Virus record (IMG/VR): IMGVR_UViG_3300037140_000042
Location: 1-24,749 of that record
From: a virus
DNA: 24,749 bases
Strand: one strand, 5' to 3'
Part shown: positions 272 through 14,997 of the stretch, in pieces
Position numbering within the stretch: position 1 is the first letter of the stretch
Layout of the letters: every line of letters starts with the position of its first letter
Made by a program: the position numbers and the translations under genes
Notes under the pieces: model-generated
Seen by the model: the letters and a program-made list of their open reading frames with translations, nothing else
Database searches by the model: none
Told to the model about the DNA's origin: nothing

Positions 272-3200
272 CTACTGCTCTTGAGTATATGATCCGAAGA
301 TTGTGAACGTTTGCAGTTCATTGATCGCGGCCTCTGCGGGCCACTGCACCATTATCTGCAGATCAGTTACCGCTGCTGATTCCGTCGGCATGTCCGACAA
401 ATAGAATCGCTGCGAGTACCATGTTCGGCTGGGCTTCAACTCGGGAGGATCGTTCACCCACTTCTTCAATATTTCGAAGCTGCCTTTGTAATACGGCAGA
501 CCATCATCTAGAAGCAAGCCAAGGATAGCAGGCGAGCCCGTGAGGACAGATTTGAGTGTTATGAACTGAATGTTAGCAACCTGACCGGGTTGCGCCAGTA
601 CGTAGGAACCGAAAACTGCATAAGCAGGATACGGTGTCCCTACGATTCCAGTTCCCGGCACAGAAGTCAGAGTAGGAAAGGTAATCGTTTCGGTCGTAGA
701 CATAGTAACGAACCCTGCGGTTGTCGCTAGTGCACGGCCATTAAGATTCCCACCGCCGAGTGTGATGCCCGAATACGCCATGATCGTTCCGACCATGTTA
801 GATTGGATACCATTCCACACAGAAGTAAATGCAGAACCACACACCCAATAAACGTTACCCGCTTGTGCACCGTTCGCAAGGATTACAGAGGCTCCGCTTT
901 CGAGCGTGATCGTAGAACCTGCGACGAATACAAAGACAGCTTGGGAATTCCCCTGAGCATCTAGTGTAATGCTCGTAGGTATATCAAGACTCGACGAACC
1001 TTTATAAACACCAGCAGTATAAGTGTGGTTGTTAACACCGTTACCGGAAGTGCTTAGGTTACCTAGACCGCTTAGAGTAGCTGGCAAACCGCTGTAATAA
1101 ACAATTGCGGCGGTAAGATCAGTCTGCGCTAATATAGCCGAAGCGTCTGCATAATGGAACACTCCCGGTGATTCTAAAACACTGGGAGGAAAATTGGTTA
1201 TCGACGTAGCATTAGATGGATATATACCAATGTTTCCGCCTGCGACAGTAGAACCTGCACCTGCGCTGCCTGTTATAGCAGAGCCCGCTAGAATGTCAAA
1301 GTTAGCGGCAGTTCCCAAATAAGTTGCTTGGGGTGTTGCAGGAGTTGACACAACTGTCCCGCCATCGGTGCTAGAAAGAACATCGCGATTCAGAATATAA
1401 ACTCCTGAACCTCGCGGTCCAACTAACAAGTGATGGACGCCGGGGGAAGTCTCGACAGATTTAATTGCACCACATCCACCTGTTTCCGCCAGAGTCGCAA
1501 AAGGACTCCATATCATACCTGCGGGTTCGGGTGTAGGCGTACTGATGAGTCGAAACCAACCATTCGTTCCATCTGCTAGGAACCATCCCATGTCTTGTCC
1601 GCTTACATAGTTTGCGACGTAGACGTTAGCTGGGTACCAGTTTTGGCCGGGTGTGCCATTTCTCATGGACAGTTGATCTGCGATTGGGACACTTTCTACT
1701 CCACCACCGACGCCGGGGCTTAGTACTAAGAATTGGCTGTCGGTAGTAAAGAAACCAATAGTAGGTCCGTTCCAATCCAAAGCGTTGTAACTGCTTAATC
1801 CAACACCCGGAATATAGGGGACACTCGGAAGAATGTTTCCGGCCCCGTCGTCAGGAATCTTGTAGACATCCGAAACCGTAAAGACAAGCATGCCAATTGC
1901 GGTAGGCACGAGTCTCTTCACGAGAGAGGGCATCTTATCATAGTTGTTAGGGGCGAATCCATTAATCCCATTACCAATTGGATCAAGGGGTCCGCTGGTC
2001 CAAAACACCGTGTTACCGATGCTGTACCAGAGGCGGTTGAGATGATACGCGAGATTTATCGCACCGGGAAGCGGTGGAGTATTTTCTCCTGCGGCGGGGG
2101 CTGGTGCCTGTATATCTAAACCCACATCCGGCGTCATATCTACATATCCATAAGTCAAGTACGTTGACAGAGGTATGGTATAAATAGTGTTGCCGTTGCC
2201 CGGAATTAACAACTCAGTCGTAAACCCATCAGCAGTGCGGAAGATAGCCACATAATCCGCCTGTGGATCGATTGCCGATTTAATGAGACCTGCACCGGGA
2301 GCGAACGTAATTGTCCCGTTGACTAAGGGTCCGGTCGAGGCACTAACTGGTCCGATGTTGGATACAGTGTTGTCTAATGTGTTCACGAGGGCGATAGCGT
2401 AAATCGCACCCTGAGCACTAGTCAGCGTGATCTTTCCAGCCTGATTTGGCTGGATAGGGATAGCACCTTCATTTATCCACACCAAACTTCCGTTGTCTAA
2501 CGTAAGTGAGTTGAGCCCTCCCGTATTCCACTTAGGAGCGGTAGTTCCGGAGTATCCGGTACTGATTGGTCCTTCTTCATTTCCGTTTGAATCAATGATG
2601 TTTGTGTCGGGTAGAGTATAGTTCTTGCTTGCAAACCACCCGAAGTTTACAACAGGTCCGATGTTAACCCACGTGTACTGTGAGCCATCATGGTTTATGT
2701 CCGCAGTTCCGAATACTATCTCAGACCGCGCTGCATTCCACGTCGCGCCTACAGTCGTAAAGATGTTCCACGCAGGCGGACCCGCGAGTGTCTTTGTGTT
2801 GTCCGGTATAATAGCTATGTTATAACCATTGCAGGTCATAATCATCTGGCCGGGGGTTCCGCCGCCACCATTTCCTTGTGAGTTAGAATAGTCAATCTCG
2901 AATCTTACTGGTCCCGCATTTGCAAAAGACCAAGTTGCCACATCTGTGAAAGGTGTGTTCGCGGGAGAGTTAGCCGAAGTATTGTTATTGTTTCCGCACA
3001 AGTTCACCTGAGTCGCGCCACCCGCATTACCAAACCCTAAAATTGCCGTCTGGATATGGGCAGTAATCAACGCGGTCTCTGTGAAATTCCCAGTTACCTT
3101 AAAATTATTAGCACTCTGATCATCGAATGAGAAGAACGCACCATCATCGTGCAATAGGGAGAATGTATACAGTCCCGGTGCGGGGATAAACATCGTACCT

Positions 3201-5188
3201 GTAATAGCCCACTCGCCTGCATTATTTCCACAAACGTTTATACCTGCACCAATCTGCTCGCCTGCACCGTTGACTGGGTAAGCGTTCATTATTGTTGAGC
3301 CGTTAACTGGGATGCCCGTTGACCATAACAGAGATGGAACCTGAGAATTAAAGGTAGAGCCCGCCCCCGGATAATACTGGTTGAATGCACCCTTCGCATT
3401 ACCCGGTGCATCCGTGTGGTAATAATATTCCAGCACGGGGTCATTCGGATTGGTCGACGAATACAACCATGGCTGGGGCGTCGGGTAGTTATTCTGCTGA
3501 TTCTTCTGTAACTGAAAATAACTAATCGTTCCCGCTGTTGGAGTTGCTTGGATGTAATCGTTCTGGAATTGATGCCTTCCCGGTGCCCATGCCAACGAAG
3601 CAGGCGTCTGGATGCATACCCACACTGCCGCCCCATCAATTTGCGTTGTAGGCGGATGCGGACTCAGCACGTTCTCCACACCATACCCTTCGTCTGGGAG
3701 TAGTGCATAATTTCCGAAAGTGAACGCCGCTTGGAATGTCGTAGTAGACAATCCTGTGGCACTAACGGTTAGATTCAAATTGCTGGTGCTAAAATTCAAG
3801 AAGGACGCAGGACCAAGGAACTGCAGCGTTACTATATCGCCTGCTGTGAGAGTCTGCGCGGATGTAGTGAATGACGCTACGTTCGATGTGATCGCGACAG
3901 ATAGGATGTCGAATTTCTTCTGCGGTGTCGGAGACGCAGGCCATGTTGGTTGAGTTGGCCCAACTAATCCGGGGGTAGAAATCTGCCACAGATAACCACT
4001 GACATTATCCTGATAAATGCTACCGAGGGAATAGTAAGTATTCGCTTGCCATCCGACTGATGTTCCTTGCGCGGTGTATGTCGGTGCAGACGTAGGCGCA
4101 GCTATGCCCCAGTTTTCTACAGGGTTACCCCTGTTGACCCATACTGCGTTACCATCCACAGTTATGCTACCTTGAAAGTTATTAGCGGCTGAGGGTACGG
4201 TCGTACCCCATACAGGTACAGAACCACCCGTAGTCACAATGCTGGTGATGACAACATCACCTATCGCATCCGTGATTCCGCTAGTCACACCGTTTGCAAC
4301 CTGTAAAATCGCGGTCATTCCGGATACAGTGAAATTCGTTGTGGAAACGAATGCGAAAACCATTGTCGTCCCACCCGTATACTGTTGGGTCAGAGCGAGC
4401 GTATTTCCGTTGAGAACGTCTGCGGCTCCCGTGCATTCCCAAAAAGTAAAATACGTACCTACGGCTTGATCTCCTCCTGCCGGAGTTGCATCATATCCAG
4501 CACCGAGGGGTGCCGAGAGAGTAACGGTTAACACGTCCGCAGTGACCGAGACTGCAGTGACTTGCGCGATCTGCACACCTATTAGTTGCTGGATATTATT
4601 GTTCGGATCAAGTAGGTACGTGTCCATGAAAGGATACGCATCGGTGTTGAGGACAGATGAATCATTTGCCGTGTTGCGGACAAAGAGAGACTGTAACCAT
4701 TTCTTCTGGTCAACCCCATTTCCAAAATATAATTCAGAACCGACTTCTTGCATGAAGTCTTGACCCGCCCCATTAGTTTTCGACCACACAAGGCTCTTGG
4801 TATTCGCATTTGTATCCGCGTACAAAGCTGTCTTTGTATCAACCATTACATCGATCTGTTCAATTGCAGTACCCCATATGTCGCTCAGGGACTTGCTGTA
4901 TCTGAATTCATCGAAAGAGAGAATGTCTGTGTATGTATTGGTAGAGTCGTAAACGGGATTTCCCGGGCGACGAGAAAGGGTAAGTCTATTGGTAACTTCA
5001 ACGTTAGACCCTGCGATCATTGCATCGCCAGCAGGTCCATAATATTTTTCAGATATTCGGCCCGTCGCCGCGTCACGCAATGGAGAGCGATTTGTCCAGA
5101 GTCCCGTGGTGTTGCGACCTACATATAGCGGGGTCGCCTTCACTTGTTTATCGGATTGGGCACCGTTGATCTGCAATGCGTTTGACAT
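272..5188 (-). CDS. Giant tail nozzle/hub-like protein (1638 aa) with PA14-like and DUF3494 insertions
   Basis: This is the largest gene and probably forms the distal tail tube (nozzle) of a short-tailed phage. The N-terminus (residues ~20-170) has the LYVGR...NRSPLR...GS/A-N...LSRRPG pattern that resembles podoviral nozzle proteins. Residues ~1040-1270 look like beta-propeller repeats (for example TVFWTSGPLDP, DVYKIPDDG, FFTTDSQFLVLSPG). Residues ~585-800 resemble a PA14 sugar-binding fold (GTMFIPAPGLYTFSLLHDDG). Residues ~1290-1507 are a DUF3494 ice-binding-like domain (LGTAANFDILAG, LDAQGN, FVFVAGSTIT, LGGGNLNGRAL). After it the nozzle sequence resumes with a YPAYAVFGSYVLAQPGQ segment to the end. 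Several modules ending in W-V/I-N-x-G motifs (near 350, 522, 903) suggest added surface domains. The start has AAAGGA upstream. The nozzle assignment is inference from order and partial similarity; the DUF3494 call is strong. Confidence 0.8.
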   Translation of the reverse strand: MSNALQINGAQSDKQVKATPLYVGRNTTGLWTNRSPLRDAATGRISEKYYGPAGDAMIAGSNVEVTNRLTLSRRPGNPVYDSTNTYTDILSFDEFRYSKSLSDIWGTAIEQIDVMVDTKTALYADTNANTKSLVWSKTNGAGQDFMQEVGSELYFGNGVDQKKWLQSLFVRNTANDSSVLNTDAYPFMDTYLLDPNNNIQQLIGVQIAQVTAVSVTADVLTVTLSAPLGAGYDATPAGGDQAVGTYFTFWECTGAADVLNGNTLALTQQYTGGTTMVFAFVSTTNFTVSGMTAILQVANGVTSGITDAIGDVVITSIVTTGGSVPVWGTTVPSAANNFQGSITVDGNAVWVNRGNPVENWGIAAPTSAPTYTAQGTSVGWQANTYYSLGSIYQDNVSGYLWQISTPGLVGPTQPTWPASPTPQKKFDILSVAITSNVASFTTSAQTLTAGDIVTLQFLGPASFLNFSTSNLNLTVSATGLSTTTFQAAFTFGNYALLPDEGYGVENVLSPHPPTTQIDGAAVWVCIQTPASLAWAPGRHQFQNDYIQATPTAGTISYFQLQKNQQNNYPTPQPWLYSSTNPNDPVLEYYYHTDAPGNAKGAFNQYYPGAGSTFNSQVPSLLWSTGIPVNGSTIMNAYPVNGAGEQIGAGINVCGNNAGEWAITGTMFIPAPGLYTFSLLHDDGAFFSFDDQSANNFKVTGNFTETALITAHIQTAILGFGNAGGATQVNLCGNNNNTSANSPANTPFTDVATWSFANAGPVRFEIDYSNSQGNGGGGTPGQMIMTCNGYNIAIIPDNTKTLAGPPAWNIFTTVGATWNAARSEIVFGTADINHDGSQYTWVNIGPVVNFGWFASKNYTLPDTNIIDSNGNEEGPISTGYSGTTAPKWNTGGLNSLTLDNGSLVWINEGAIPIQPNQAGKITLTSAQGAIYAIALVNTLDNTVSNIGPVSASTGPLVNGTITFAPGAGLIKSAIDPQADYVAIFRTADGFTTELLIPGNGNTIYTIPLSTYLTYGYVDMTPDVGLDIQAPAPAAGENTPPLPGAINLAYHLNRLWYSIGNTVFWTSGPLDPIGNGINGFAPNNYDKMPSLVKRLVPTAIGMLVFTVSDVYKIPDDGAGNILPSVPYIPGVGLSSYNALDWNGPTIGFFTTDSQFLVLSPGVGGGVESVPIADQLSMRNGTPGQNWYPANVYVANYVSGQDMGWFLADGTNGWFRLISTPTPEPAGMIWSPFATLAETGGCGAIKSVETSPGVHHLLVGPRGSGVYILNRDVLSSTDGGTVVSTPATPQATYLGTAANFDILAGSAITGSAGAGSTVAGGNIGIYPSNATSITNFPPSVLESPGVFHYADASAILAQTDLTAAIVYYSGLPATLSGLGNLSTSGNGVNNHTYTAGVYKGSSSLDIPTSITLDAQGNSQAVFVFVAGSTITLESGASVILANGAQAGNVYWVCGSAFTSVWNGIQSNMVGTIMAYSGITLGGGNLNGRALATTAGFVTMSTTETITFPTLTSVPGTGIVGTPYPAYAVFGSYVLAQPGQVANIQFITLKSVLTGSPAILGLLLDDGLPYYKGSFEILKKWVNDPPELKPSRTWYSQRFYLSDMPTESAAVTDLQIMVQWPAEAAINELQTFTIFGSYTQEQ

Positions 5189-5211: not shown

Positions 5212-6351
5212 CTACACGGGGCTGGAGTCGGCGTACATATACTCAACCGTTGTAGACTGGCCGCTACCACTACCGTTGTGACTATATATGGCCATATTTA
5301 AGGCATTCGCAGTCGGTAGGGTAGAGTTGGTAGTAATAGCCGTTCCGTTGATGTATAAGGTTGCCGTACCCGCATTGACAATAATCTTTATGGCGTACCG
5401 AGTACCCTGCACGATGGCAACTCCCGAGTCAACAACGGTCTTGACACCACCCGTGCTAGTCACTAACAGCCAGTTTCCTGCGGATACACCTGAGGCAACA
5501 TAACCAACAAGAATGGAATCTCCCGTCGTGGGGTCAGTAACACCTGATCCGGAGGCTATATTGGTCAAACCCGCGTAGTACAAACTTGTGGCAGTGACGG
5601 TTACCTTAATGGTGGTGAGAAAGTTTATTTTTCTCGTGGGCCAAATAAACCCAGCACCGTTGTAGGCCACGCTGTTATTAATAGTGATTGACACACCACC
5701 GCTAGAGGTGACAGCGTTGTTGGTAGTGCTGCCTCCACCACCCGCACCAGCGTTTATATTATCATCGAAAGGAACCCACGCACTGCCACCGGGAAAGTTT
5801 GCGTACCACATAGCAAAGCGTGATTGATCGGGTGTTGGAAGCCCTGCTGGTGGTGGTGGGGTAATTGGAACTGATGCTGAAATCTGGCCATTACCTATGT
5901 CAGTGAATGTGACATTTCCCGAATTCACGAGGTCTAGTAAGGTCTGGGAACTAAGTGCCGTTCCCGCAACTTCTAGTGAAAGAGGTTGAACAGAAGGCGA
6001 CCAACTGATTACGCTATTCGGAATCCATGAGCCTGCGTCGAAGGTCGGACTGCCTACACATTGTTGGTTATTCGGACCAAAAGATATTTGTCCTGCTGAC
6101 GTATACCCAGTCACTTTGTAATATGAATTAACAGGTAGCATCACATCATTCCCCCATACATACTGGGGGGGACTTGTAATTACATTGCCATTCGCATCAA
6201 GCTGTATAGTGATCTGGATTCCACTACAGATTATACTGTCATTAACTTCTTCATCGGAAGATAACATCATCGTTAAGTAACCATTAGCGAGAACATTTCC
6301 TTGGGGGTCTTGAAACGAACCACCGATCAATTGCACTTTAGATGCTGACAT
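5212..6351 (-). CDS. Tail adhesin-like protein with lectin-like C-terminus (379 aa)
   Basis: The first ~90 residues match the complete neighbouring 98-aa protein (6355-6651) in pattern: a GG-S/N-FQ motif, LA-x-GY-x-T, a D-x-x-I-x-SG stretch, LD-x-NGN, a W-x-ND element and a final Y-x-TA-x-GQ. A Pro-rich linker (ITPPPPAGLPTPDQ, near 165) and a Gly/Ala/Ser stretch lead to a C-terminal beta-rich region of about 170 residues. Its end (YAIKIIVNAGTATLYINGT) resembles concanavalin A/LamG-like jelly rolls. I infer a virion attachment or receptor-binding protein: the N-terminal domain would dock on the tail and the C-terminal domain would bind glycans. SD GGGAG sits before the ATG, directly after the 98-aa gene's stop. 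No catalytic residues were recognised. Confidence 0.7.
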   Translation of the reverse strand: MSASKVQLIGGSFQDPQGNVLANGYLTMMLSSDEEVNDSIICSGIQITIQLDANGNVITSPPQYVWGNDVMLPVNSYYKVTGYTSAGQISFGPNNQQCVGSPTFDAGSWIPNSVISWSPSVQPLSLEVAGTALSSQTLLDLVNSGNVTFTDIGNGQISASVPITPPPPAGLPTPDQSRFAMWYANFPGGSAWVPFDDNINAGAGGGGSTTNNAVTSSGGVSITINNSVAYNGAGFIWPTRKINFLTTIKVTVTATSLYYAGLTNIASGSGVTDPTTGDSILVGYVASGVSAGNWLLVTSTGGVKTVVDSGVAIVQGTRYAIKIIVNAGTATLYINGTAITTNSTLPTANALNMAIYSHNGSGSGQSTTVEYMYADSSPV

Positions 6352-6651: not shown

Positions 6652-7596
6652 TTACACGCCTCGCGCTTGCATTCCTTGGGCGCTTTTTTGGGGGCCCATT
6701 CCAAGTACTGCGTTCCAATTGTTCAGGAAAATATTTTTCTCTTCTTCGGTCAGTCCTTCTGCTCGTGCGAGAAGTCCCGCAGTAAATTTCGAATTGGCGA
6801 TCTGGAATCTGGCGTCATCCGCAAACGCCCAAATCAAAGCTAAAAAACCCCAACTGTAGATGTACTGCATAAAGTCCGGCATCGGAGCCCACGTCTGGTT
6901 GATGCTGGTAATTCGAGGGGCGGCGAGTTGTACGTGTACGCTAACGGGGTACACCGCATTCGGTGATGGCATGACTCGGAAAGTCACATCACCATTTGCA
7001 TCCTCCGCTTGCGGGCCTACGAAAGTGGGCCGGGCATCTCGGGAATCGAGAGCGAGGTCATTCTGAACTTTCAGTTCTACCCAATTCGGCGGGGTACGAG
7101 TCACATCTAATACAGATGCGTGCTCAATATGAGAGAACGCAGGCGCTGCAATCGTGTAATCCTGAGTAGTGCCGTTCGTAAGGGTTCCTGTGTCCACGTG
7201 TGAAGCATATGTCTGAGTGGTGACTGCGGCAGTGATCTGTATAGGACTCGCAGTGAGCACTATGAGAAGCTGGCCGTTGAGAAAGGTTGCGTTCGCTACG
7301 GCTGACGGGATTACAAGATTCCCTACGGCAAAAGTGTTCGCGGTTGTTATCGTGGCGATTCCAGCGGTCACAGAGACGTTAGTAATAGGTGCCGAGTTCG
7401 CAATAGGAGAAGTCGTGAAACTCAATTCCTGTGTGTTCCACCAAAATTCGAAGGGTGGCGCTAAAATCACATCCATGACCATTTGCGCGGAAGTGAGTGC
7501 TGGTTCGAGATTATTTCCTACCGCTGATAGACGATTGAACGATAATTTCTTCGCCCACTCCATTGTCTGCGATATCGTAACTGTTGAGATTGCCAT
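6652..7596 (-). CDS. Neck/adaptor-like structural protein (314 aa), paralogue of the 357-aa protein upstream
   Basis: Likely a head-tail connector or tail-tube protein, judged from its place between the capsid genes and the nozzle. The layout is an N-terminal helix, a segment with PPFEFWWN (near residue 47), a central beta-rich Ala/Thr/Val insertion (about residues 65-145), a WVELKV segment, then FRVMPSP, YPVSVHV, APMPDFMQYIYSWGFLALIWAF, and a helical end with KFTAGLLARAEGLTEEE. The 357-aa protein upstream keeps the same order (FNWKWN, WLES, YPVIVK, KSLSTMLDPIPDDFYTFFKQGF, KFEIEYKLWQQAL). The start at 7596 has AAAGGA about ten bases upstream. The last ~85 bases of the HNH gene overlap its 5' end in another frame. 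Confidence 0.7.
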   Translation of the reverse strand: MAISTVTISQTMEWAKKLSFNRLSAVGNNLEPALTSAQMVMDVILAPPFEFWWNTQELSFTTSPIANSAPITNVSVTAGIATITTANTFAVGNLVIPSAVANATFLNGQLLIVLTASPIQITAAVTTQTYASHVDTGTLTNGTTQDYTIAAPAFSHIEHASVLDVTRTPPNWVELKVQNDLALDSRDARPTFVGPQAEDANGDVTFRVMPSPNAVYPVSVHVQLAAPRITSINQTWAPMPDFMQYIYSWGFLALIWAFADDARFQIANSKFTAGLLARAEGLTEEEKNIFLNNWNAVLGMGPQKSAQGMQARGV

Positions 7597-8235: not shown

Positions 8236-9309
8236 CTAGTAAGACCAGGGTCCATACGGGGAAGCAGGACTAATGGGGTTATAGCTGTACCCGGTATCCA
8301 TCACGTTCGTCTGTGGCACAAATCCCCAATCGTCTTCTTGGTTAGCGCCAAACATCATCGCGTTGGTAAGCGCCTGCTGCCAGAGTTTGTATTCAATCTC
8401 GAACTTCGCCCGGACTTCTTTGAGCGGGGAACGACGATAGCACTGGGCAAAAAATCCCTGCTTGAAGAAAGTGTAGAAGTCATCTGGAATCGGGTCGAGC
8501 ATAGTACTAAGCGACTTGATGAATGGCACCTTCATTTGACCGACTGGCTGGATGAACCACACCGGGCCTGTTTGACAAGGCAGTGGGTTGATTCGGTAAC
8601 CTTGGCCTTTCGGATTGACTGCGGTCCATTGGACTGTTCCATCCGTCACAACGGTAGAAACAATGCTCTGATTCTGCACGGTTGGATAGGTTGGATTTTG
8701 ATTCACAAGAAAAGGGTTAGTATTGCCACAGGTTCCGTACCGGGTAAGAGTCCAAAGATTTCCGAAAGCATCTTTGATCGCCGTAGTCGGATTGATGGGC
8801 TGCGCGATTGCAGCGCTAGGATCGTTATACACTACGCCAGGGCCGGGTTGTGATTGCCCGGTCGGAGTCAATTGTGTAGATGCTCCCCACGTGCCCGCCT
8901 GCATAGTATCATTCTGCATCCAGCAAATGCGAGCATCATTGTTCGTCGAAAGATTGAAAGTGATCAGGAGGTCTCGCTTTACGATGACCGGATATACAGG
9001 CTTTGGGAATTGTGTACTGCTATAATTTACAGCCGTGCAACTCTCCAACCAGCCTACCGCTACCTGATTCGGAATGAAATAATCCTGTTGCCAACTGTTA
9101 ATGAAGAACGGAGTCTCTACGGCACGATTCCACTTCCAGTTGAAGGGCTGGCCGTTAGGTCCGCCTGCGAGCATGTTCTGCATTACGTCGTTCGCGATAG
9201 ATAGCGCAGGGGCGTCGGAGAATCCGCCAGCCGGGATGGCAGGTGCGAGTTCACCATTACTGCGAGCGTCATCCACCAAATCCTGTAGCTGTATCGAACT
9301 GTTTCCCAT
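8236..9309 (-). CDS. Neck/adaptor-like structural protein (357 aa), paralogue of the 314-aa protein
   Basis: I place the start at the ATG at 9309, which has AAGGAG seven bases upstream; an in-frame extension to 9372 would run through a structured hairpin. The protein begins with helical residues (SSIQLQDLVDDAR), then FNWKWN, PFFINSWQQDYFIP and WLES, and a central insertion (about 155-245). The insertion contains DGTVQWTAVNP, resembling the W-motif modules of the tail nozzle. Conserved late elements are KSLSTMLDPIPDDFY and a long terminal helix with KFEIEYKLWQQAL. The order of elements parallels the 314-aa protein at 6652-7596, so both are probably rings or subunits of the neck or tail tube. 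Exact role unknown. Confidence 0.72.
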   Translation of the reverse strand: MGNSSIQLQDLVDDARSNGELAPAIPAGGFSDAPALSIANDVMQNMLAGGPNGQPFNWKWNRAVETPFFINSWQQDYFIPNQVAVGWLESCTAVNYSSTQFPKPVYPVIVKRDLLITFNLSTNNDARICWMQNDTMQAGTWGASTQLTPTGQSQPGPGVVYNDPSAAIAQPINPTTAIKDAFGNLWTLTRYGTCGNTNPFLVNQNPTYPTVQNQSIVSTVVTDGTVQWTAVNPKGQGYRINPLPCQTGPVWFIQPVGQMKVPFIKSLSTMLDPIPDDFYTFFKQGFFAQCYRRSPLKEVRAKFEIEYKLWQQALTNAMMFGANQEDDWGFVPQTNVMDTGYSYNPISPASPYGPWSY

Positions 9310-9440: not shown

Positions 9441-9605
9441 TTATCTAGGCTTTCGTTTTTCGGTGGTTGCGAGTTCATTTACTCGCGTCACGAATGCGGG
9501 GTTAGTGGTCACATGCGTTCGATATACGTCAGAAGACATGCGGTCCACATCTGCACTGGTCAACAGTGCTACTTGTTCGGCGGATAGCGATTGTGTCTGG
9601 CTCAT
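9441..9605 (-). CDS. 54-aa stand-alone homologue of the scaffold C-terminus
   Basis: ATG at 9605, TAA at 9441-9443, with GAGG seven bases before the start. The last 40 residues match the end of the scaffold-like protein (15012-15983): this protein has TTNPAFVTRVNELATTEKR where the scaffold has MTNPAFVKRVNELEATRPP, preceded by DRMSSDVYR versus DDMPSEDYR. The DNA of the two is clearly diverged, so the homology is old. In tailed phages the scaffold C-terminus often binds coat protein, so this could be a free coat- or portal-binding peptide; that is inference. Its first 31 codons recur as the start of the neighbouring chimeric gene. Confidence 0.8.
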   Translation of the reverse strand: MSQTQSLSAEQVALLTSADVDRMSSDVYRTHVTTNPAFVTRVNELATTEKRKPR

Positions 9606-10594
9606 GATTACCTCAGGTTCGAATTCTTGACCGCCTGTCGGTAGTCATTCGTCGCGTCCACCCACTGTTCAGACTTCTCATCCCACTTGCTAAATTTGCA
9701 GATGACGGAGCCCGAGGCGGTGTTATTGGTTTCAAAAGCAACTGCCTTACGATATTCCACTTCCGCTGCTGCGAATTTCTCGGGGGAGAATACACCATCC
9801 ACCGGAGCAACAACCTTACCCTTCGCGCTGAAATAGAAGTTATCCTTGACTGGCGGGAGCCACGTCTTACCACAACGGAGACAACGAACCCAGAAGTCGC
9901 CATTAATCATCTGGTGCTTGATTACAGCGTACTGCGGACTGTTACCGCCCGTCAGGTTGCGCTGAGAAACTACGCCACCTTTCTTATGAGTACAGGCGTT
10001 CTGCTTCGCATCGTCTTCACGCTTCTGGGCGGCGAACACTTTACCCTGTGTTCGATATACGTCAGAAGACATGCGGTCCACATCTGCACTGGTCAACAGT
10101 GCTACTTGTTCGGCGGATAGCGATTGTGTCTGGCTCATGATTACCTCAGGTTCGAATTCTTGACCGCCTGTCGGTAGTCATTCGTCGCGTCCACCCACTG
10201 TTCAGACTTCTCATCCCACTTGCTAAATTTGCAGATGACGGAGCCCGAGGCGGTGTTATTGGTTTCAAAAGCAACTGCCTTACGATATTCCACTTCCGCT
10301 GCTGCGAATTTCTCGGGGGAGAATACACCATCCACCGGAGCAACAACCTTACCCTTCGCGCTGAAATAGAAGTTATCCTTGACTGGCGGGAGCCACGTCT
10401 TACCACAACGGAGACAACGAACCCAGAAGTCGCCATTAATCATCTGGTGCTTGATTACAGCGTACTGCGGACTGTTACCGCCCGTGCTGAGAACTTGCAG
10501 GTTGCGCTGAGAAACTACGCCACCTTTCTTATGAGTACAGGCGTTCTGCTTCGCATCGTCTTCACGCTTCTGGGCGGCGAACACTTTACCCTGT
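9517..10594 (-). repeat. Near-perfect tandem duplication, two copies of ~533 and 545 bases
   Basis: Bases 9517-10049 and 10050-10594 are the same by eye along their whole length except for a 12-base in-frame block (10486-10497, coding for four residues) missing from the left copy. The unit contains the start of the 54-aa gene and the C-terminal two thirds of the zinc protein gene. The junction at 10049/10050 shows no microhomology. Identity this high means a very recent event, or an artefact of joining two strain variants during assembly. Confidence 0.95.
9608..10138 (-). CDS. Chimeric duplicate: 54-aa gene N-terminus fused to zinc-protein C-terminus (176 aa)
   Basis: Residues 1-30 are identical to the first 30 residues of the 54-aa peptide (MSQTQSLSAEQ...DVYRT); from about GKVFAAQ onward the sequence is identical to the 215-aa zinc protein, except for the loss of four residues (QVLS). 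The frame is open across the junction and the start keeps the same GAGG SD. It retains the putative zinc ligands: C-T-H near residue 48 and CLRC near residue 85. It is a product of the tandem duplication at 9517-10594, so it may be a new functional gene, a relic, or an assembly artefact. It replaces the coiled coil of the parent with the scaffold-like N-terminal segment. Confidence 0.7.
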   Translation of the reverse strand: MSQTQSLSAEQVALLTSADVDRMSSDVYRTQGKVFAAQKREDDAKQNACTHKKGGVVSQRNLTGGNSPQYAVIKHQMINGDFWVRCLRCGKTWLPPVKDNFYFSAKGKVVAPVDGVFSPEKFAAAEVEYRKAVAFETNNTASGSVICKFSKWDEKSEQWVDATNDYRQAVKNSNLR

Positions 10595-11936: not shown

Positions 11937-12503
11937 TTACGGGATTACGTTCACCAACACAATCGCGTACAATCGCATTATCGGTTGGCCTTGTGTACCA
12001 GCAATAACGCTGTCAAACGTCGGGAAATGAATCCCGACACCTGTCTGGCCAACGTGGGAAGCAGTGATGAGACCGCTTGCCGATACGCTAGCAATCAGGG
12101 CAGAGTATGCAACCTGATTAGCGAGTAAACCATTGCCACTGATTGCATTGCTAGGATTGTAGAATGCACCCGTTGGATAATCAGACTTGTACGTCGGTGA
12201 ATTGACCGGGGCTGTATAAGTGGTGTTAGCCACATCCTTTATGATGGTTGTAAGTTGGCAAGTGTTACTATATGCCACACCATTGACTGTCTTACTGCCT
12301 AGACTCAGTGTAAGATTATACTGAGCAACGGGGTGCTTAGCAGAAGACACTGCGCCGATACCTTGACCTGTCTGGAACCCGGTCGTACCCTGTGTGGCCC
12401 CTGCGCCACCGCTGTTATTAACAACGTTGGTGCCTGTTACTTGGACATAAGCTGCAACTGCGAGCCCGTCCGTAGGATTGTGCTGTGGATTTGGATTTGC
12501 CAT
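11937..12503 (-). CDS. Capsid decoration-like protein with Ig-like C-terminus (188 aa)
   Basis: The N-terminus (GLAVAAYVQVTGTNVV) matches that of the neighbouring 394-aa protein (GLGVAAAVKLTGTGVV). The C-terminal ~50 residues (VSASGLITASHVGQTGVGIHFP and IMRLYAIVLVNV) resemble a bacterial Ig-like group 2 strand pattern. Low charge, many Thr/Ser/Asn/Val residues and a position downstream of the major capsid gene suggest a head decoration or fibre protein; this is inference. AAAGGA precedes the ATG. It looks like the domain-free version of the 394-aa protein. Confidence 0.7.
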   Translation of the reverse strand: MANPNPQHNPTDGLAVAAYVQVTGTNVVNNSGGAGATQGTTGFQTGQGIGAVSSAKHPVAQYNLTLSLGSKTVNGVAYSNTCQLTTIIKDVANTTYTAPVNSPTYKSDYPTGAFYNPSNAISGNGLLANQVAYSALIASVSASGLITASHVGQTGVGIHFPTFDSVIAGTQGQPIMRLYAIVLVNVIP

Positions 12504-12535: not shown

Positions 12536-13720
12536 CTACGATGTACCACCTGTAACCGTGACGATTAGATGCGCGAAAATCGAATCAATCGGAGTTTCAT
12601 CCATAACTGTTGGGGTTCCGTCGTCCCCATAAATCGTTCCAGTCGTATTCAGGAAAGTCGGAATTTGGAATTCAACTACGCACTGTCCCGCTACACGTCC
12701 TCGAACCGTAAATGGGTTACCATCGCTGTCATCAAGAGAAGCGGGGGCCGCAAATGTGTTGCTATATTTATTTGCGTTAGATGGCCGATACCATGCAGGA
12801 TTAGACGAAGGGAAATTGTTATACACAATCGCGTTCCATCCAACCTGAGAAGCCCCTGTTGGTACCGTAATAACTTCGGCAGCCGCTATAGTCACTGCAC
12901 CTGAACTAGTTACGATGCCCGCGAGTGCGCGACCATTCAAAGTGCCGCCGCCTAGGGTGATGCTCGTGTTGGCCAGAATGTTTCCATTCATCAAGGCTCC
13001 GGGGCCAACAGATGTAAAGGAACTTCCTGCGATCCAGAACACGTTACTTGCCTGTGCTCCGTTCTTCAGAGTTACTGTGCCTGCGATTGCCTGCGTAATA
13101 GTCGATGCGGTCGCGTAGAACACGAAGATTGCATTCGGGTTCCCCTGAGCATCCAAAGTAACCGGAGTGGTAATTGCGATGGAACTAGGGCTTACATACT
13201 TACCAGCGAACCAAGTCCCATTAGGTGCGCCTGCGCTGCCTTGTATACCGCTCGATCCGATGTCGGCAGTGGTAAGTGATGCAGTGGTAGGCAGCGCAAG
13301 CAGAGCGTTATACTCGATTAGAGCCGCAGCCAAAGCAGCCTGCGCGTCTGCGTTGTCCACAGTCGCTGGGGGTGGGTTGAAACCTGTGATAGATGTGGTT
13401 GGAAATGATCCAATGACTCCTCCTGCGATGGACGTACTTCCGGTGTTCGTAATTCCTGCGGCTGCAAGGATCGCATAATTCGCGGCGGAACCTAGTGCCA
13501 GATTCCCTGCGGACGATCCGACAGTTGCGCCTGCATCATCGATTGCCGAAGATGTCACGACGACGGACCCGCCAATAGGAACGTTTACGGTGTACTGGGA
13601 GACACCACGCGTGCCCGCTACGGGGGTGCGTGTTTGCACTACGCCCGTTCCAGTCAATTTTACTGCTGCTGCAACGCCGAGACCGCTTGTAGGAACGCCC
13701 CCGACACTTGAGTTACTCAT
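12536..13720 (-). CDS. Decoration-like protein carrying an internal DUF3494 ice-binding-like domain (394 aa)
   Basis: Residues 1-70 and ~290-394 correspond to the two ends of the 188-aa decoration-like protein. Between them, residues ~74-287 form a full DUF3494 domain: LGSAANYAILAAAGITN, SIAGGVIGSFP, LDAQGNPNAIFVFYATASTIT, GAQASNVFWIAGSSFTS, LGGGTLNGRALA. DUF3494 folds into a beta-helix with an alpha helix alongside; characterised members bind ice, and others are thought to be adhesins. The second copy in this window lies in the tail nozzle. Position two places after the capsid gene suggests display on the head surface. SD AAGGAAG precedes the ATG. The DUF3494 call is strong; the decoration role is inferred. 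Confidence 0.85.
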   Translation of the reverse strand: MSNSSVGGVPTSGLGVAAAVKLTGTGVVQTRTPVAGTRGVSQYTVNVPIGGSVVVTSSAIDDAGATVGSSAGNLALGSAANYAILAAAGITNTGSTSIAGGVIGSFPTTSITGFNPPPATVDNADAQAALAAALIEYNALLALPTTASLTTADIGSSGIQGSAGAPNGTWFAGKYVSPSSIAITTPVTLDAQGNPNAIFVFYATASTITQAIAGTVTLKNGAQASNVFWIAGSSFTSVGPGALMNGNILANTSITLGGGTLNGRALAGIVTSSGAVTIAAAEVITVPTGASQVGWNAIVYNNFPSSNPAWYRPSNANKYSNTFAAPASLDDSDGNPFTVRGRVAGQCVVEFQIPTFLNTTGTIYGDDGTPTVMDETPIDSIFAHLIVTVTGGTS

Positions 13721-13965: not shown

Positions 13966-14997
13966 TTAGGAGATAGCCGAAGCGGCATCTATCTGACGCT
14001 GACGGATGGTCGTGTCAGGTCCGAGCGATGTCGTGAAGTGCACACGATAGCTGGTCCATCCGGGGATCAACCCTTCAGGATCGGCAACAGTTGGTTCTGC
14101 GTTCTGAACAATATTACATTCGATATTTCGCCATTCACCGTCACCGAATCCGGTGTCACCCTTCGCTCCGAGGTTGATGGAGAAGATACCATCGCGTCCG
14201 AAGATGTAGGTGCGGAGTGCGGTCAGACCCGTGATGCCGCTGTAGTTCGAGGTCTGAGTGACCAAGTTGGTCTGGTAGAAATCCACGCCCGTAGTAGGCA
14301 ACGTGATGACTTCAGTCAGATCAACCGAAACGAGACTGTCCATCTTCATCTGGCCCACCGGGGTGTGCTTCAGAATATCGATTGGGGAATCGTTGCTGTT
14401 ATCAGCAAGGACATCACCCAAAGCGAATGGATGGATCACGCCTGCGAAGCTCTTGGAACCTTCGTCGAACGGTCGAACGCTGCGACCCGCCAGCGACTGA
14501 ACGCTGTTACGAATCTGAGAGAGCGACAGAGCGGTGAAGCTCGAAGTGCTTGAAGCGGCCAGTTCGGTCAAAACACTGGCGTCGATGCTCGATGCACCGT
14601 CGGCAGTTGCACGCACGAGTGCGGACAACGATTCGCCAAGACGGTAAGACATTTCACGAGCAACGTTCTCAACGGTGTTGTCAATCGCGGTAGCGAGAGA
14701 CAGCGAGGAGAAGTTAGCGTAATCGGCATATTCACCGATAGTCGCCGTGGTAGTCAGAACGGAAACGCTCAGAGACGAACCAACAGTCCCTTCTGTAGTC
14801 TGGTTGACGTTTGCAGACAACGGAATATACATGAACATCTCGTACTGGTTACCTGAATTCACTGGCAAGTCGAGACGTTCCGAGCATGCGACGAACGGGG
14901 TTTGTGCCTTCAAATTCTCACGGAACTTTTTGTCAAAAAACTTTACCGTGGATTGAGGCAGGTTGGAAAGCTGGTTACCCGCTGGGGAGAAAGCCAT
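13966..14997 (-). CDS. Major capsid protein, HK97-fold type (343 aa)
   Basis: Likely the main head shell protein. It follows the scaffold gene directly, has typical length, and contains elements common in N4 gp56/P22-like coats: an N-terminal helix (TVKFFDKKFRENLKAQTPF), YEMFMYIPL, the EYADYANFSSLSLATAIDNTVENVAREM segment (P-domain and spine-helix-like), a central VIHPFALGDVL, and RTYIFGRDGIFSINL followed by TSYRVHFTTSLGP near the end. The start at 14997 has only a weak AGGT SD, but the scaffold stop lies 14 bases upstream, so translation may be coupled. High confidence from context and pattern; the exact coat family is not certain. Confidence 0.85.
   Translation of the reverse strand: MAFSPAGNQLSNLPQSTVKFFDKKFRENLKAQTPFVACSERLDLPVNSGNQYEMFMYIPLSANVNQTTEGTVGSSLSVSVLTTTATIGEYADYANFSSLSLATAIDNTVENVAREMSYRLGESLSALVRATADGASSIDASVLTELAASSTSSFTALSLSQIRNSVQSLAGRSVRPFDEGSKSFAGVIHPFALGDVLADNSNDSPIDILKHTPVGQMKMDSLVSVDLTEVITLPTTGVDFYQTNLVTQTSNYSGITGLTALRTYIFGRDGIFSINLGAKGDTGFGDGEWRNIECNIVQNAEPTVADPEGLIPGWTSYRVHFTTSLGPDTTIRQRQIDAASAIS

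Follow-up and report, generated by a model that had tools for sequence, protein, structure and literature searches.

The stretch of DNA analysed here, called the window in the following, is the viral record IMGVR_UViG_3300037140_000042 of IMG/VR, with a length of 24,749 nucleotides, and belongs to an uncultured tailed phage. The gene of main interest encodes a 394-aa protein, p394, and adjoins the gene of the major head protein. The features considered are listed below with their coordinates in the window, except for the last one, which lies in a longer contig; Tunturi_3 is a cultured phage described further on.

12536..13720, minus strand: p394 (394 aa), an open reading frame with a predicted Ig-like backbone and an inserted DUF3494 domain
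13502..13720, minus strand: N-terminal flank of p394, residues 1-73, matching positions 2-71 of the p188-family profile (E 5e-6)
12857..13495, minus strand: DUF3494 module of p394 (Ice_binding, PF11999), residues 76-288, from Pfam, the structure model and PDB matches
12539..12856, minus strand: C-terminal flank of p394, residues 289-394, matching positions 106-186 of the p188-family profile (E 8e-16)
11937..12503, minus strand: p188 (188 aa), an Ig/BIG2-like protein without insert, from family membership, Big_2 and the structure model
13966..14997, minus strand: major head protein (343 aa), matching phrog_1357, major head protein (E 4e-14)
6652..7596, minus strand: probable tail adaptor, matching SU10_adaptor below the cut-off (E 0.0011) and homologous to Tunturi_3 gp13, 'tail protein'
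5212..6351, minus strand: 379-aa protein beside the 1638-aa gene, possibly with a further binding domain (LamG-like, E 0.0018, below the cut-off)
272..5188, minus strand: open reading frame of a 1638-aa probable short-tail protein with the other DUF3494 domain, homologous to Tunturi_3 gp19
671..1318, minus strand: DUF3494 module of the 1638-aa protein, residues 1291-1506, from PF11999 and alignment
L014 / L295:4176-5231 (in contig G003, outside the window): third DUF3494 protein (351 aa)

Within the window two matches to PF11999 are found by the Pfam search, one in p394 (residues 84-281, E 1.3e-30, 107 bits) and the other in the 1638-aa protein (residues 1299-1499, E 1.6e-33, 116.6 bits), the cut-off being 28.7 bits and both matches spanning positions 1-205 of the 208 positions of the profile; the same search gives no PF11999 match in p188. 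The initial annotation, which had placed a DUF3494 domain of the 394-aa protein at 12860-13501, is thus confirmed, with limits that differ from ours by a few bases. In the AlphaFold model of p394 the solenoid has pLDDT values of mostly 70-92, with the carrier poorly determined, and consists of a helix (residues 123-141) and solenoid strands as in the solved ice-binding proteins. Searched against the PDB, the solenoid model has 31 significant matches (E<=0.001), all of them DUF3494 ice-binding or antifreeze proteins or their mutants, with E from 5e-11 to 1e-6 and TM up to 0.83 of the target. The solved DUF3494 proteins (EfcIBP 6EIO, AnpIBP 7BWX, FfIBP 4NU2 and TisAFP 3VN3) belong to the same family, with profile E down to 1.6e-37, and share with the phage domains the predicted fold and a ladder of Thr and small residues on the presumed ice-binding face. 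They are, however, cellular proteins, whereas the phage domains, which make up a clade of viruses only, are inserts in probable particle proteins. The p394 gene is present in three further contigs (L001-L003) at 99.5-100% identity and in L004 and L005 at 62-63%. Since the three near-identical contigs have the same gene, it is no assembly error, and an assembly chimera as its origin is ruled out.

What carries the domain can be seen from the flanks. The profile of the p188 family, which was built from 28 proteins, recognises both flanks of p394 separately, in order and better than 400 shuffled flanks, the best of which gives E 0.0065. This bears out the earlier view that the 394-aa protein is a protein like its 188-aa neighbour with a domain inserted. 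Members of the p188 family match Big_2 (best E 5.4e-8) and also phrog_215, 'structural protein with Ig domain'. For p188, AlphaFold gives an all-beta model with a mean pLDDT of 69.5 and a core of about 90, and its matches in the PDB, all with modest scores, are best to the phi29 capsid protein (E 4.5e-4) and further to a mycobacteriophage capsid protein and to S-layer/BIG2 domains. Based on these matches, we assign to the family, with moderate confidence, an Ig-like fold of the BIG2 type. The model resembles the Ig-like/BIG2 domains of the capsid proteins of phi29 and mycobacteriophage Douge, with two differences: the fold has here a gene of its own, located downstream of that for the capsid protein, and it carries a solenoid of about 213 residues in a loop. 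In the models the insert of p394 follows the strand pair 42-60, corresponding to the region after strand 85-90 of p188, which is a low-confidence loop in the p188 model.

A second subclass of this head-side family, called class B, provides the relatives with and without the domain, with 18 proteins lacking DUF3494 and two, in L059 and L091, having it, cleanly inserted, at a single point between 'ATSQE' and 'LTYVAY'. Beside this point there is a repeat of about 60 residues, unlike DUF3494 and varying in copy number, and the point resembles a permissive display loop. Because the search with the C-terminal flank found no p394 orthologue without the domain, it is class B and the paralogue p188 that provide the proof of an empty site on the head side. 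It is also observed that the class B repeat, in L059, L091 and the 18 others, reads 'VYTGTITGGGSNAFAGxTFxVAGF...NNGTFxATASSTTTLTL'.

For the 1638-aa protein, which has no PHROG match, the empty site is seen directly. In L299 and L300 the C-terminal region of the protein is 88% identical, the domain is absent, and the sequence reads 'SSTDGG-AAGEYTE-GTPYPAY' where the window carries the insert; in the DNA alignment of the window with L299, no obvious mobile-element signature is found at the insertion. An independent insertion is suggested by L160 and L168, whose domain occupies a different position in that loop and precedes the 'SSDGG' motif instead of following it. A third DUF3494 gene is present in G003, a near-identical longer contig (39.7 kb) that has both window domains as well, so that one genome holds at least these three copies. 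At the place of the third copy, the related contig G004 has a single domain-free protein of 136 aa, 67% identical to the start of the neighbouring 110-aa protein and 74% identical to the end of the 351-aa protein. Note also that residues 662-775 of the 1638-aa protein (window 2864-3205, minus strand) have a weak PA14-like match, with E 2.5e-4, below the Pfam cut-off.

Concerning the place of the two carriers in the particle, the only cultured relative found is the Tunturiibacter phage Tunturi_3 (PP885686.1), whose major head protein is 81% identical to that of the window and which is the only deposited phage found with this major head protein. It is a podovirus with a 77-nm head and a 21-nm tail (PMC11924767). 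It has the same gene order, the adaptor homologue and a homologue of the 1638-aa protein (gp19, 1136 aa); by contrast with the window, its gp7 (class B) and gp19 are both without DUF3494, making it a natural domain-free relative. The N-terminus of the 379-aa protein is homologous to its gp15, annotated as 'tail fiber protein', and the SU10_adaptor-like gene supports the short-tail reading of the region. In most of the loci examined, the 'GLGVAA' gene, i.e., the p188-family gene, is found downstream of that for the major head protein, no more than one or two genes away. From these gene positions, we infer that p394 is on the virion, that its insert is probably exposed, and that the particle would present the domain multivalently. 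Because the GenBank labels of Tunturi_3 run opposite to our assignment (gp7 'tail fiber protein', gp19 'head decoration protein') and the text of the paper describing it (PMC11924767) contains no mention of mass spectrometry or structural proteins, the head or tail identity of each carrier is likewise an inference; our search found no virion proteomics for the group. The earlier proposal that head and tail of one virion both carry the domain agrees with the gene order, the podovirus relative and the Ig-like matches.

The same domain also occurs far beyond these two carriers. In the tree, the viral domains, 59 distinct ones, fall together as a single clade when set against 76 rows from bacteria and the PDB (SH-aLRT 99), and a smaller and more careful tree gives this clade a support of 100/100; in the bacterial rows three phyla are represented, none of them Acidobacteriota, and both sets were picked by similarity. 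A scan with viral-domain patterns over the genomes of 84,980 bacterial and archaeal species gives only three weak relatives. Members of the viral clade sit in many unrelated phage proteins, of the head side, the tail and others; among ten other carrier proteins, only PF11999 is recognised with PHROG and Pfam. Within the clade, the head-side domain of the window groups with domains of unrelated phage proteins (support 100/99), and the tail domain groups with the head-side domains of L004, L032, L049, L058, L102 and L128 (97/93). Placing the window head domain together with the remaining p394-type head domains is rejected by the AU test (p 1.3e-5, for a group chosen post hoc, after alignment).

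With these data, the origin of the two copies can be considered. If one DUF3494 copy had been duplicated inside this phage, giving both the head-side and the tail domains, it would be expected that the two lie in one genome and have common family motifs, as they do. However, they belong to separate, well-supported viral subclades, and the AU test rejects them as sisters with p 4.7e-6. The two window domains are 44-55% identical to each other, the value varying with the alignment. Moreover, the tail domain is 73-74% identical to the relatives' head-side domains and only about 51-55% identical to its own head-side partner. Intragenomic duplication is thus ruled out by the tree and the AU test under the model used, and we consider it extremely improbable.

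Exchange between carriers is seen, instead, from the identities along the gene. Between the window and L004 they are 92% in the N-terminal flank, 56% in the domain and 79% in the C-terminal flank, and between L004 and L032 they are 55%, 83% and 62%, respectively. Because these identities are mosaic, the domain moves independently of its carrier. The initial annotation had considered that one display module was recruited repeatedly, and this is well supported by the single viral clade with many carriers, by the different subclades, and by the relatives with empty sites and swapped domains. It had also expected that the two window domains would not fall into distant clades; they do fall into different ones, but both of these are phage DUF3494, because of which the modular reading is strengthened rather than weakened. 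As for the motifs that it had noted in both copies, SxFTS and LGGGxLNGRAL are indeed typical of the viral clade, whereas LDAQGN and GAQAxNVxW are largely family-wide. The linker 'SPVTT' was considered as a general cassette boundary and rejected; 18 of the 63 viral domains have it, none of the 74 bacterial ones does, and both window copies are without it.

Carriage on both the head side and the tail recurs in at least three further contigs, 017448_000004, 050821_002142 and 050011_000062. Among the 48 related records, which may be incomplete, five have a PF11999 match; since most relatives are without the domain, it is not essential. It is also observed that the 223-kb contig 038465_000091 has several DUF3494 carriers and that each of the 824-840-aa phage proteins L141, L130 and L175 has two DUF3494 domains, on contigs lacking homologues of the head genes of this phage. 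That such an insertion is already documented in isolated phages is not the case in the 50,697 phage records searched, where tblastn with four queries gave no DUF3494 match. Among the viral structures of BFVD, only DUF3494 proteins of Hyperionvirus match at E<=0.001, and these are separate proteins of another virus, without the phage carrier. The literature search, with subscription papers mostly outside its scope, gave no paper naming both DUF3494 and phage. A further likeness is to the vOTUs of the Arctic surface microlayer (PMC11515562), a cold habitat whose viral contigs likewise contain PF11999; in the available portion of that report, the genes are classed as auxiliary genes for cryoprotection of the host, with neither virion context nor module swapping described.

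That classification implies another function, in which the proteins, as products of auxiliary genes, would shield the infected host cell against freezing. For the present phages this is improbable, because the domains form part of proteins encoded in the head-tail block and a signal-like N-terminus is present in only 9 of 60 viral DUF3494 proteins, as compared with 57 of 74 bacterial ones.

What the displayed domain would bind is considered with the face of the solenoid. In TisAFP7 the ice-binding segments are residues 19-25, 38-45, 123-129, 147-153, 174-180, 192-198 and 210-216 (PMC7966756). The seven rungs of the Thr ladder, mapped onto these published segments by alignment rather than on coordinates, are as follows.

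p394: T91, T112, T188, T209, T236, T255, T277
1638-aa protein: T1306, T1331, T1408, T1428, T1455, T1476, T1495

Thus Thr occupies all seven ladder positions in both window domains, as it also does in the third copy; the ladder of EfcIBP has five Thr and one Ser, and a ladder of seven Thr is reached by 13 of the 59 viral domains and by 9 of the 76 others. Over the ladder columns, Ser, Thr, Ala, Gly or Asn is present in 94% of the cases in viruses versus 85% in the other rows. Measured by column entropy, the b-face does not stand out in its conservation from the other parts of the solenoid. Since small and hydroxyl residues are kept at the rungs, the ice-binding face appears, as judged from the alignment, to be intact and compatible with ice binding, which is no proof of it.

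The main rival to ice is that the displayed DUF3494 binds the host exopolysaccharide, the cell surface or soil particles, serving as a co-receptor or a diffusion-limiting anchor by analogy with the Ig, PA14 and LamG domains of phages. Such adhesion would be consistent with the weak PA14 and LamG matches in the neighbouring proteins, with the class B relatives filling the same loop with other repeat modules, with the occurrence of DUF3494 also in ice-free habitats (PMC12337378), and with swapping between proteins, which is presumably usual for phage adhesion modules. If adhesion to such surfaces were the function, it would have to be reconciled with a ladder whose columns are no less strict than the bacterial ones in retaining small and hydroxyl residues and with the PDB matches at E<=0.001 being exclusively DUF3494 ice-binding or antifreeze proteins or mutants. 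We consider it possible but on balance doubtful. Nothing in this analysis points to mucus as the ligand, which had been named as a candidate at the outset.

By contrast, ice is favoured by the conserved face of Thr and small residues and by the tundra host of Tunturi_3. This host, Tunturiibacter psychrotolerans, is a psychrotolerant acidobacterium from tundra at Kilpisjarvi, Finland, and the IMG/VR matches of Tunturi_3 are from permafrost peat of Stordalen Mire and also from non-Arctic soils (PMC11924767).

We thus propose that p394 is a virion surface protein in which DUF3494 is an exchangeable display cassette, with ice as the most likely ligand; to this joint reading we give a probability of roughly 0.55. 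In the model, an Ig-like backbone of the BIG2 type, a paralogue of the p188 family, would hold a complete DUF3494 beta-solenoid in a permissive loop. The phage-borne cassette would be inserted, lost and swapped among head-side, short-tail and other probable particle proteins, so that one particle would present many DUF3494 copies on several of its parts. With the flat Thr-rich b-face, these copies would bind ice or a surface presenting ordered water likewise, for example on particles. The multivalent binding might then hold or concentrate the virions at the ice/brine boundary in seasonally frozen soil, or alternatively blunt the freeze-thaw damage there. More tentatively, it may be that in a widespread group of soil phages the virions are multivalent ice-binding particles, with the head, the short tail and a third protein all equipped from a phage-only cassette pool and with ice used for persistence and for meeting hosts in freeze-thaw soils.

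An important point to note is that known parts, DUF3494 and an Ig-like carrier, are found here in a new arrangement. Ice-binding proteins were known before in microbes, and in viral contigs as putative host-protection genes; if the model is true, a virion with several domains of the ice-binding type would be a new means by which viruses withstand freezing or turn it to advantage. Given the defined domains and a cultured relative that lacks them, the persistence of virions in frozen soils could then be tested directly. In addition, the analysis brings to light an apparently permissive loop of an Ig protein on the head side and, in environmental phages, a pool of solenoids that can be interchanged.

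Finally, we note some other features of the window and its relatives. At 9514-10594 of the window, about 540 bp are duplicated in tandem (98% identity), which gives a second, shortened copy of a 215-aa gene; because it is absent from the near-identical L002 and L003, it is an assembly artefact or very recent. Among the near-identical contigs, L003 has an extra ORF of about 0.7 kb (a 269-aa open frame with an endonuclease-like start) between the major head protein gene (ending at 9062) and the p394 gene (starting at 10001), which neither the window nor L002 has. In L004 (7296-10000), L005, L128, L134-L137 and L102, the major head protein gene itself is interrupted. A search of Rfam gave no known intron family in the interruptions of L004, L137 and L128; homing-endonuclease-like ORFs lie in or beside the gaps, and the interruptions resemble introns.
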